From the NCBI RefSeq assembly GCF_026125785.1, contig NZ_JAHCKL010000021.1, positions 1 to 64,000 of the forward strand: a DNA stretch of 64,000 nucleotides, given 5' to 3'. Below are positions 25,539 through 43,540 of this stretch, in pieces. A model generated the notes under the pieces. The model was not told the DNA's origin. It made no database searches and saw nothing but the letters and a program-made list of their open reading frames with translations. Positions within the stretch are counted from its first letter, which is position 1; the number at the start of each line of letters is the position of its first letter. The DNA comes from Hydrogenophaga sp. (GTDB lineage: Bacteria; Pseudomonadota; Gammaproteobacteria; Burkholderiales; Burkholderiaceae_C). A program made the position numbers and the translations under genes.

Positions 25539-25576
25539 AAAGCAGGGATTATCCCCAGCCCTTCTACAATTTGTCC

Positions 25577-27511
25577 GTGACAAACCTCCCGCCATCCTCG
25601 CCCGAAGCCCGACGGCCGATTCGTGAACTGCCCGACGAACTGATCAGCCAGATCGCGGCCGGTGAGGTGGTGGAGCGCCCGGCCTCGGTGGTGCGCGAGC
25701 TGGTGGACAACGCGCTGGATGCCGGCGCCACACAGGTCACGGTGCGGCTGCAGGCCGGCGGCGTGCGCCTCATCAGCGTGGAGGACGACGGCATCGGCAT
25801 CCTGCGCGACGAACTGCCCCACGCGCTCAAGCGCCACGCCACCAGCAAGATCGCCAGCCTCTCGGACCTCGAATCCGTGGGCACCATGGGTTTTCGCGGC
25901 GAGGCGCTGGCCGCCATCAACGCCATCGCCGAAGTCTCGCTGCTCACCCGGGTGGACACCGCAGGAGCGACCTCGCACGGCTGGCTGCTCGATGGACGCA
26001 GCGGCGAACTGCGGCCGACCGCCCGCGCGCGCGGCACCACGGTGGAGGTGCGGGAACTGTTCTTCGCCACGCCGGCGCGGCGCAAGTTCCTCAAGACCGA
26101 TGCCACCGAACTGGCGCACTGCATCGAGGCGGTGCGCCGCCATGCCCTGGCCCGCCCCGACGTGGGTTTCGCCATCTGGCACGAGGGCAAACTGGCGGCC
26201 CAATGGCGCGCCGTGCCCGGCGGTGGCATCGACGCGCTGCGCCAACGCCTGGCCGACGTGCTGGGTGAAGACTTCATCGAGCAGGCCGTTCCCGTGAGCT
26301 GGCCCGCCGAACCCACGGTGGCCAGCGAAGACCCGCACGCCGCGCAGCGCCTGCGCGTATGGGGTTTTGCGGGCGTGCCCGATGCGGCACGCTCTCGCGC
26401 CGACTGGCAGTTCGCCTACGTCAACGGCCGCTACGTGCGCGACAAGGTCATCACCCATGCCGCCCGCAGCGCGTACGAGGATGTGCTGCATGGCCAGCGG
26501 CAACCGGTGTATGCCCTGTTCGTCTCGCTGGACCCCGCGCGCGTGGACGTGAATGTGCACCCGACCAAGATCGAGGTGCGCTTCCGGGACAGCCGCGAGG
26601 TGCACCACGCCGTGCGCCACGCGGTGGAAGCGGCATTGGCGGTGCCACGCGCCGGCAGCGTGGCCGTGGCCGTGACCGCGCCAGCCCCGGCCACCGCACC
26701 GGGCTGGGCTCCCCCGCCACGGCAGGCCGGGCTGGCGTTCGCGCCGCGCGAACCCGAGGTCGGCCATCGGGTGAGCGACCTGGGTGCGTTGTGGGGCAGC
26801 GGGCCGGCAGGGGCTTCGACAGGCTCAGCCCGAACGGAGGGCATGGCATCCGTCGCTGGCCGGCCACCGCCCGTTCGGGCTGAGCCTGTCGAAGCCCTCA
26901 CCCAGTACCAACCTCTCCCCGAAGGCGACTGGCCGCTCGGCCGCGCCTTGGCCCAACTCCAGGGCGTCTACATCCTGGCCGAAAACACCCAGGGCCTGGT
27001 GGTGGTGGACATGCACGCCGCCCACGAGCGCATCGTCTACGAACGCCTCAAGCAGCAGCTCGACGACCGGCAGGTGGCCAGCCAGCCCTTGCTGATTCCG
27101 GCCACCTTCGCCGCCACCCCCGAGGAGGTGGCCACCGCCGAAGCCTGCGCCGAGGTGCTGGCCACGCTGGGCATGGAGGTGTCGCCGCTGTCGCCGCGCA
27201 CGCTGGCGGTGCGCGCCGTGCCCACCTCCCTGGCCCAGGGCGATCCGGTGGAACTGGCGCGCAGCGTGCTGGCCGAACTGGGCCAGCACGACGCCAGCAC
27301 CGTGGTCCAGCGCGCCCGCAACGAACTGCTGGCCACCATGGCCTGCCATGGCGCGGTGCGCGCGAACAGGCGCCTCACCCTGGACGAGATGAACGCCCTG
27401 CTTCGCCAGATGGAGATCACCGAACGCTCCGACCAGTGCAACCACGGCCGCCCCACCTGGCGCCAACTGGGCATGCGGGAGCTGGACGCACTGTTTTTGC
27501 GCGGACGCTAG
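25577..27511 (+). CDS. mutL: DNA mismatch repair protein MutL
   Basis: Links MutS recognition to strand incision. The 644-residue protein has the GHKL ATPase domain (NALDAGA, DDGIGI, GFRGEALAAI; residues about 10-330), a variable linker and the C-terminal dimerisation domain. The latter carries DMHAAHERIVYE, close to the DQHAxxExxxxE endonuclease motif, with ACHGAVRAN and CNHGRPT further on, so this MutL is predicted to nick DNA itself. Start GTG 25577 is chosen; TTG 25571 is possible and no good ribosome site is seen. Odd feature: residues about 412-440 in the linker are encoded by an 87-base palindromic repeat (26811-26897). Confidence 0.93.
   Translation: MTNLPPSSPEARRPIRELPDELISQIAAGEVVERPASVVRELVDNALDAGATQVTVRLQAGGVRLISVEDDGIGILRDELPHALKRHATSKIASLSDLESVGTMGFRGEALAAINAIAEVSLLTRVDTAGATSHGWLLDGRSGELRPTARARGTTVEVRELFFATPARRKFLKTDATELAHCIEAVRRHALARPDVGFAIWHEGKLAAQWRAVPGGGIDALRQRLADVLGEDFIEQAVPVSWPAEPTVASEDPHAAQRLRVWGFAGVPDAARSRADWQFAYVNGRYVRDKVITHAARSAYEDVLHGQRQPVYALFVSLDPARVDVNVHPTKIEVRFRDSREVHHAVRHAVEAALAVPRAGSVAVAVTAPAPATAPGWAPPPRQAGLAFAPREPEVGHRVSDLGALWGSGPAGASTGSARTEGMASVAGRPPPVRAEPVEALTQYQPLPEGDWPLGRALAQLQGVYILAENTQGLVVVDMHAAHERIVYERLKQQLDDRQVASQPLLIPATFAATPEEVATAEACAEVLATLGMEVSPLSPRTLAVRAVPTSLAQGDPVELARSVLAELGQHDASTVVQRARNELLATMACHGAVRANRRLTLDEMNALLRQMEITERSDQCNHGRPTWRQLGMRELDALFLRGR
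26811..26897. repeat. REP-like inverted repeat embedded in frame inside mutL
   Basis: A left arm at 26811-26837 beginning GGGCTTCGACAGGCTCAG and a right arm at 26871-26897 are perfect 27-base reverse complements, separated by 33 bases. The whole unit is 87 bases, a multiple of three, and adds about 29 residues (around TGSARTEG and PVRAEPVEA) to the MutL linker. The arm sequence resembles an intergenic REP-type palindrome that I recall from many proteobacteria. Confidence 0.9.
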
Positions 27512-27583: not shown

Positions 27584-27625
27584 GATCCTTGCATAATGTC
27601 ATGCACTGATATGAAGCACGACACC

Positions 27626-28969
27626 ATGAAAGCCACTTCGGTCCACCAGTTCCTCGAACACGTCGCTCAGCGCAACCCCCAGCAACCCGAATTCCTGCAG
27701 GCCGTCACCGAGGTGATGGAGAGCCTCTGGCCGTTCATCAGCGCCCATCCGCGCTACGCCGAACATGGGCTGCTCGAACGGCTGGTGGAGCCTGAGCGCG
27801 TGGTGATGTTCCGTGTTTCCTGGGTCAACGACCAGGGTGAAGTCCAGGTCAATCGCGGCTACCGCATCCAGCACAGCTCGGCCATTGGCCCCTACAAGGG
27901 TGGCATGCGGTTCCACCCCTCGGTGAACCTCTCGATCCTGAAATTCCTCGCCTTCGAGCAGACGTTCAAGAACGCGCTGACCACGCTGCCCATGGGCGGA
28001 GGCAAAGGTGGGTCCGACTTCGACCCCAAGGGCAAGAGCCCGGGCGAGGTGATGCGTTTCTGCCAGGCGCTGGTGAGCGAGCTGTTCCGCCACGTGGGCA
28101 GCGACACCGACGTACCGGCGGGCGACATCGGTGTCGGCGGGCGCGAAGTCGGCTTCATGGCCGGCATGATGAAGAAACTCAGCAACCGGGCGGACTGCGT
28201 GTTCACCGGCAAGGGCCTTGCGTTCGGCGGCTCGCTGATCCGGCCCGAGGCCACCGGCTACGGCACGGTCTATTTCGCCGAACAGATGCTCAAGCAGCAG
28301 GGCAAGGACTTCCAGGGCCTGCGCGTGAGCGTCTCGGGCTCCGGCAACGTGGCGCAGTATGCGGTGGAGAAAGCCATGGCGCTGGGCGCCAGGGTGGTGA
28401 CCGTCTCCGACTCCAGCGGCACCGTGATCGACGAGGACGGCTTCAGCCCCGAGAAACTCGCTGAACTCATGGAGGTGAAAAACCACCTCTATGGCCGCGT
28501 GAGCGACTACGCGCAGCGCACCAAGGCCCGCTTCGAACCCGGCGTGAAACCCTGGGCGGTGCCGGTGGACGTCGCGCTGCCCTGCGCCACACAGAACGAA
28601 CTGGACGCCGCCGACGCGGCCCTGCTGGTGCGCAACGGCGTGACCTGCGTGGCCGAGGGTGCGAACATGCCCACCACGATGGACGCGGTGGCCGTGTTCG
28701 AGCAGGCCGGCGTGCTGTATGCGCCAGGCAAGGCCAGCAACGCAGGCGGCGTGGCGACTTCCGGCCTTGAAATGAGCCAGAACGCCATGCGCCTGGCCTG
28801 GCCACGCGAGGAAGTCGACAGCCGTCTGCACACCATCATGGTCGGCATACACGAGGCCTGCCTGCGCCACGGGCGCCGCCCGGACGGCACCGTCAGCTAC
28901 GTGGACGGTGCCAACATAGCCGGCTTCGTGAAGGTGGCCGACGCGATGCTGGCTCAGGGCGTGGTGTAG
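27626..28969 (+). CDS. gdhA: NADP-type glutamate dehydrogenase
   Basis: Assimilates ammonia by reductive amination of 2-oxoglutarate to glutamate. From ATG 27626 the product is 447 residues, exactly the E. coli GdhA length, and begins MKATSVHQFLEHVAQRNP like other members; upstream in-frame ATGs at 27596 and 27611 overlap a likely -10 element. Catalytic and binding motifs are GPYKGGMRFHPSVN, LPMGGGKGGSDFDPKGKS and DVPAGDIGVGGRE, followed by the Rossmann part (SVSGSGNVAQYA). A palindrome upstream suggests specific control. Directly after the stop begins an 85-base tandem repeat. Confidence 0.94.
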   Translation: MKATSVHQFLEHVAQRNPQQPEFLQAVTEVMESLWPFISAHPRYAEHGLLERLVEPERVVMFRVSWVNDQGEVQVNRGYRIQHSSAIGPYKGGMRFHPSVNLSILKFLAFEQTFKNALTTLPMGGGKGGSDFDPKGKSPGEVMRFCQALVSELFRHVGSDTDVPAGDIGVGGREVGFMAGMMKKLSNRADCVFTGKGLAFGGSLIRPEATGYGTVYFAEQMLKQQGKDFQGLRVSVSGSGNVAQYAVEKAMALGARVVTVSDSSGTVIDEDGFSPEKLAELMEVKNHLYGRVSDYAQRTKARFEPGVKPWAVPVDVALPCATQNELDAADAALLVRNGVTCVAEGANMPTTMDAVAVFEQAGVLYAPGKASNAGGVATSGLEMSQNAMRLAWPREEVDSRLHTIMVGIHEACLRHGRRPDGTVSYVDGANIAGFVKVADAMLAQGVV

Positions 28970-28970
28970 A

Positions 28971-29270
28971 GCCCCCACGCTCCGCCGCTGCGCGGGTCGC
29001 TGCCCCCCGAGGGGGCTGACACCGCCTTGGGAGCGGCCCGGCGGCGGGGTCGGATCGCCCCCACGCTCCGCCGCTGCGCGGGTCGCTGCCCCCCAGGGGG
29101 GGCTGACCCCGCCTTGGGGCGGCCCGGCGGCGGGGTCCCTGGCCCCCACGCTCCGCCGCTGCGCGGGTCGCTGCCCCCCGAGGGGGCTGACCCCGCCTTG
29201 GGGCGGCCCGGCGGCGGGGTCCCTGGCCCCCACGCTCCGCCGCTGCGCGGGTCGCTGCCCCCCAGGGCGT
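28971..29270. repeat. 85-base GC-rich tandem repeat, about 3.5 copies
   Basis: Copies begin with GCCCCCACGCTCCGCCGCTG at 28971, 29057, 29142 and 29226 (unit lengths 86, 85, 84, last copy truncated near 29270). Each full unit contains a C-run/G-run hairpin around GCCCCC...GGGGGC and ends GGCGGCGGGGTC. The repeat starts one base after the gdhA stop. The 382-base gap up to the next gene holds nothing else I can recognise apart from 80 bases of leader before 29352. Confidence 0.92.
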
Positions 29271-43480: not shown

Positions 43481-43540
43481 TTGACGCGTCCATTTGGTAC
43501 CGGTACCATTCGCCTCGACTCGATTTGGTACCGGTACCAA
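43481..43540 (+). promoter_or_regulatory. Receptor-gudD-garL-garR promoter with operators O2 and O3
   Basis: TTGACG (43481-43486) and TACCAT (43504-43509) form a 17-base-spaced promoter. Operator O2, TGGTACCGGTACCA (43495-43508), overlaps spacer and -10; operator O3, TTGGTACCGGTACCAA (43525-43540), is a perfect 16-base palindrome centred 31 bases downstream, about three helical turns away. This is a classical two-operator repression layout. Confidence 0.8.

Follow-up and report, generated by a model that had tools for sequence, protein, structure and literature searches.

A dispersed palindromic repeat carried in frame within the linker of mutL in Hydrogenophaga

Rickettsia offers the best-known cases of palindromic repeats within protein-coding genes, the Rickettsia palindromic elements (RPEs). 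These are described, in the sections cited here, as short palindromes that keep the frame of conserved genes, fall in solvent-exposed regions of the proteins and occupy the same site in orthologues (PMC3767692, PMC10969869). For RPE-4, RPE-6 and RPE-7, the R. japonica paper, in the part drawn on here, leaves undecided whether an insertion site is a hotspot or holds one diverged element. Units and dimers of the GTAG and CGTC REPs are reported inside ORFs, many of them DNA synthesis and repair genes, by Di Nocera and colleagues (2013, PMC3733652); its main text does not mention mutL, and it gives the CGTC REP a CGTC (or TGTC, CCTC) tag, a stem of 8-9 bp and a loop of 4-5 nt. The betaproteobacterial repeat element (BRE) of the Comamonadaceae is about 90 bp long and, as far as the cited account goes, has some copies inside coding sequences (PMC3110155). 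Partial accounts also describe small mobile sequences (RU/ERIC) inside enterobacterial genes (PMC2759123, PMC2229807) and a palindromic amphipathic repeat coding sequence in Mollicutes (PMC2996958).

The window analyzed here comprises the first 64,000 nucleotides of a contig from Hydrogenophaga sp. (assembly GCF_026125785.1, contig NZ_JAHCKL010000021.1). It contains a mutL gene encoding an ATPase domain, a linker and a C-terminal domain with DMHAAHERIVYE, which we take to be an endonuclease-type motif (Table 1). A reading of the sequence alone had noted a perfect inverted repeat in frame within this gene, and we confirmed it. The two 27-nt arms are 100% complementary and, with their spacer, occupy 87 nt or 29 codons, across which the ORF remains open with no stop. 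Among the best 25 of the 68 inverted pairs in the window (arms within 250 nt of each other), the mutL pair ranks first and is the only perfect pair longer than 15 nt. RNA spanning 26805-26903 folds with a predicted energy of -76.8 kcal/mol (z = -9.8), which none of 200 shuffles equaled, and Rfam at gathering thresholds matched nothing in the 64-kb window. At 43494-43540 the window also holds a perfect 15-nt inverted repeat, TTGGTACCGGTACCA, whose arms are 17 nt apart and each largely self-complementary.

Table 1. Coordinates of mutL and of the inverted repeat within it (positions in the window)
Feature	Position	Strand	Remark
mutL	25571-27511	+	646 codons from first listed TTG; Pfam and solved structures
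MutL linker, residues 356-454	26636-26932	+	between solved domain homologues; low pLDDT
Left arm, one repeat unit, read as ASTGSART	26811-26837	+	
Spacer, 33 nt	26838-26870	+	between the two mutL arms
Right arm, left-arm unit inverted, read as VRAEPVEA	26871-26897	+	

The left-arm unit consists of a stem GGGC/GCCC, a loop TTCGACAGGCTCA and a tag CGAACGG, and the tags of the two mutL units point inward, toward each other. Folded alone, one arm forms a 5-bp stem with an 11-nt loop. Searching by the loop around the repeat sites of the genome yielded 84 units with a near-constant loop, the tag CGAACGG, and the stems GGGC/GCCC, GCCC/GGGC, GGCC/GGCC and GTCC/GGAC. Inverted pairs of units are present in the genome in both possible orders. 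In being a hairpin unit that occurs as inverted pairs and in high copy, the repeat resembles the REPIN-RAYT systems. However, the GTAG end tag is absent from the 45 commonest unit forms examined, the commonest of which carry CGAACGG or CCGTTCG. The repeat likewise differs from the CGTC REP, having a CCGTTC tag, a shorter stem and a longer loop; it shares with the intragenic GTAG- and CGTC-tagged REPs the occurrence of units inside ORFs, including repair genes. The BRE is similar in size, lineage and the occurrence of some in-gene copies, and the RU/ERIC sequences and the Mollicutes repeat are alike as small repeats that lie within coding sequence or make it up, although in other organisms; these likenesses are drawn from published descriptions only.

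The insert occupies the disordered linker of MutL, where the sequence-only reading had placed it. Alignments with solved N-terminal homologues end near residue 355, that with the solved C-terminal homologue starts at residue 455, and a model built on a 24-sequence alignment (mean pLDDT 70.0) has pLDDT below 50 at residues 363-451. By coordinates, the insert corresponds to residues 414-443. Possibly the mRNA hairpin slows translation at this point, a proposal that comes from the sequence.

The arm core TTCGACAGGCTCAGCCCGAACG has 83 matches in the genome at up to two mismatches, whereas its reversed control has none, in keeping with the earlier suggestion that an amplified palindromic repeat sits at a tolerant site. 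Hand grouping, with 40 of 77 candidates scored, placed the repeat at 39 or more places, the surroundings of 39 of which were read; at least one further place exists, C1:150675. Among the places read, five lie inside genes: mutL, a gene resembling the methylcrotonyl-CoA carboxylase alpha subunit (mccA-like), purL, an xdhB-like gene and selO. These placements rested on flank coding scores, reading frames and solved homologues, and the count of five leaves out placements near gene starts, which possibly lie upstream of the true start. Inverted pairs occur in mutL and in the carboxylase gene; the xdhB-like gene has a pair of which one unit has diverged, and purL and selO have single units. The other inserts, like that of mutL, fall in linkers or in the gaps between blocks that align with a solved homologue. 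As in-frame palindromic repeats in conserved genes, these copies (pairs in two of the genes, units or partial pairs in three) resemble the RPEs, but they occur in another bacterial class and probably have other sequences. Core matches number from 0 to 103 per genome within the genus, with at least one in 49 of 60 genomes (31 of 32 and 18 of 28); across 80 genomes representing 80 genera of the family, our own included, 27 have at least one. At one repeat place of genome G000 (contig C42; positions 1617-1754 of locus L125), about ten tandem 14-nt units CAGGGCGAACGGAC adjoin a repeat pair.

To follow the mutL insert across relatives, we took the mutL loci of all 59 of the 60 same-genus genomes that matched. 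A single ORF was found in 54 (among them G019, whose final residues are missing at a contig edge), and the remaining five loci are incomplete, four being cut by contig ends and one by a run of N. An apparent frame break in G032 was rejected, as the two-frame match accompanies a stretch of N immediately ahead of the repeat. Linkers were extracted from 56 loci (L053, L057 and L080 were dropped) and an arm was called recognizable at 19/27 or better; shuffled linkers (20 each) peaked at 18/27. A recognizable arm was present in 24 of the 56 linkers, 16 of which retain both arms, and in 32 none was recognizable. The insertion is therefore not the strain-specific one that the sequence-only reading had considered. 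The left arm reaches the threshold in 19 linkers, and in 16 of these it begins at the identical base; two others begin 24 nt later, after extra repeat-like sequence, and one is weak and lies elsewhere. Because the insert is shared in this way and 16 of the 19 left arms start at one base, a single old insertion into mutL is most likely. The spacer varies from 27 to 117 nt in the 15 other linkers with both arms, and half of the insert has been lost, in frame, in G029. The linker of G008 is exactly 87 nt shorter than that of the window, which may be due to chance given that linker lengths range from 48 to 225 nt.

A tree of MutL sequences, from which partial genes were left out, placed most carriers within two sister groups. 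Outside both groups were G028, with a lone arm matching at 24/27, and G004, with a weak arm at 19/27. The mutL gene may have moved horizontally, so that its tree differs from the species tree. Conservation of the insert residues in distant genera with non-palindromic codons, a pattern that the sequence-only reading had named as contrary to its view, was not seen: the best core match outside the genus was 18/22 (L130) among the mutL loci of named Burkholderiales, 80 of which were kept out of 490 relatives. The nearest named mutL among the relatives listed, from which near records may be missing, is that of Polaromonas at 72% identity. In their linker peptides, L043, L079 and the Ramlibacter locus L136 seem to carry other palindromic repeats (PFDKLRTG is one such peptide). 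Their sequences suggest that other repeats may enter the MutL linker too.

Taken with the dispersal of the repeat, this history makes it probable that an inverted pair of a dispersed repeat entered the MutL linker in frame in an ancestor of part of the genus, whose descendants have kept it as selfish DNA that is translated and tolerated. After what would be a single original insertion, the arms have decayed in some lineages; in repeat-rich genomes other copies would renew them, through gene conversion or re-insertion. The insert peptide would have no needed function; selection would remove insertions elsewhere in genes, and permissive loops would tolerate them.

The state of the arms differs greatly among carriers. 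In the eight genomes with the best-preserved insert, four-fold degenerate sites in the arms match the window at 109 of 110 positions, compared with 1570 of 2295 (68%) in the rest of mutL (Fisher p = 1.6e-16), although the first figure is partly circular because these genomes were picked for preserved arms. In the seven other genomes with both arms, the arms (55 of 78) match no better than the remainder of the gene (1411 of 1983; p = 0.9). Six of the eight have at least 54 copies of the repeat in the genome, the exceptions being G058 with 9 and G017 with 23, and the seven others have 4-25. Copy number and arm integrity are correlated (Spearman 0.59, n = 55), but phylogenetic regression (PGLS) gave p values of 0.10 and 0.15 for the 24 linkers with a recognizable arm and 0.04 and 0.07 for the 16 with both, and G004, G008 and G016 are rich in repeats and yet have a weak mutL arm or none. 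Given these borderline regressions and exceptions, upkeep of the arms by other copies in the genome is only suggested. Correction of one arm by the other within a single element was considered and rejected, since the decayed arms of G024, compared by eye, bear different changes.

The mccA-like gene and purL extend the comparison to other loops. When aligned with the solved homologue 3u9s, the carboxylase insert lies between residues 286 and 289 of that structure, immediately ahead of the MEMNTRLQVEHP stretch, and a model of the protein (mean pLDDT 58.8, used for this purpose only) has a low-confidence stretch at 280-332 between two strands. The carboxylase query matched all 60 genomes; loci were taken for 48 and the loop was extracted from 46. 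Of these loops, 24 have no more than 10 residues and count as empty, two have 15 residues without a recognizable repeat, and 20 are filled, with inserts that add 14-157 residues to the empty length of 6. At least three palindrome families, which differ in sequence, contributed the inserts; families were called by motifs and, for G057 and G050, also by eye. Family A, the repeat found in mutL, occurs in the loops of G000, G012 and G023. Among the 39 carboxylase loops that could be placed on the MutL tree, 13 have family C and five have family D, and the minimum numbers of changes on that tree are three for A, seven for C and four for D. Two families share one loop in G023, G050 and G056, the last of which is absent from the tree.

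PurL gives a similar picture. The gene matched in 53 of 60 genomes and the loop was extracted from 29 of 30 loci: 17 are empty, three have family A and two its remnants, two have palindrome B, and four have family C, with a short C-like tail in G029. Two purL matches each were found in G048 and in G014, one of the two genomes with family B, and one copy in each may be a contaminant. Families B and D were recognized by sequence only, and by eye the differing sequences would make the families unrelated. The left family-A arm of the carboxylase differs in reading frame between G000 and G012, and the frame of family C in G033 differs from that in the other species extracted. Because one element is read in different frames across species, it is the DNA and not the peptide that recurs. 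Family C is itself dispersed, with matches in 59 of 60 genomes and 32 in this genome. In the window, a cluster of family-C palindromes (GCCGGGCCGCCCCAAG, with two exact minus-strand matches) occupies 29033-29221, just downstream of a glutamate-dehydrogenase-like gene at 27596-28969, and in G005 (L269, minus strand) a 163-residue stretch of the carboxylase contains five in-frame family-C copies at 84-nt spacing. A reading-frame filter on tandem expansions was examined and set aside; in-gene periods are 21 or 84 nt, but 21 nt is common at other sites too, which leaves the comparison little power.

The best reading of the carboxylase, PurL and MutL loops is that they are sites where proteins tolerate parasitic DNA. 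Unlike what is described for the RPEs, families of different sequence here occupy one loop. In this betaproteobacterial genus of dozens of species, one site can be compared in its empty, filled, doubly filled and decayed states. It becomes testable whether different elements enter a shared insertion site as a hotspot or whether a single element has diverged there; for the loops of PurL and the carboxylase we favor the former. Such loops are natural maps of the tolerance of enzymes for long insertions. A more general proposal is that in this genus several unrelated palindromes find standing landing sites in permissive loops of three proteins, MutL, PurL and a biotin carboxylase, with in-gene copies kept identical by gene conversion while a family is abundant and decaying afterward. 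We put this forward tentatively, as it could well prove wrong; if true, dispersed repeats keep rewriting parts of conserved enzymes, whose loops evolve together with the selfish DNA.

The repeated entry into the carboxylase and PurL loops also bears on whether the single MutL site was hit again in separate species, clean arms being young insertions. That clean arms tend to accompany repeat-rich genomes, and that the G028 arm lies outside the main carrier groups, would agree with such recurrence; the common start base and frame of 16 of 19 left arms, and the decayed copies held in register by sister species, do not, and we consider it unlikely for mutL. Selection for the palindrome or its peptide, whether as an mRNA hairpin slowing translation between domains or as linker sequence that aids DNA binding, might be read from the near-invariant arms of the eight species and the very stable hairpin, and linker length is reported, in the part of the study cited, to affect roadblock bypass by E. 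coli MutL (PMC6902014). The same account describes no mutator phenotype in E. coli with a 40% shorter linker. Together with the unexceptional arms of the seven other two-arm species, the half lost in G029 and the 32 linkers with no recognizable arm, this makes co-option improbable. The reversible mutator states proposed from the sequence, with recombination between repeat copies as the switch, look highly improbable, for although the repeat is at no fewer than 39 places in the genome and G029 has undergone a partial in-frame loss, none of the 59 mutL loci is shown to be broken (the five lacking a single ORF are the incomplete ones) and no second copy lies on the 69.6-kb contig of mutL among the matches listed.

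Text searches of the literature for the repeat or its peptides, with supplements and subscription papers beyond their reach, found nothing, and among the matches listed for mutL and REP none contained "repetitive extragenic palindromic". As far as these searches reached, the lineage, the presence in mutL and the repeated entry of different families into the same loops are new. A RAYT gene was rejected as the driver of the repeat. In 31 of 32 same-genus genomes there is one Y1_Tnp gene per genome, whatever the repeat count, and in 13 loci from 12 genomes no repeat core (up to four mismatches) was found within the 1.3-1.5 kb or so around it (3.3 kb in G000), whereas in REPIN-RAYT systems the repeat flanks the RAYT gene. 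The single-copy Y1_Tnp (RAYT-like) gene of G000 (L128; G000:C9:51295-51597) lies beside what appears by eye to be a glutamate-synthase gene.
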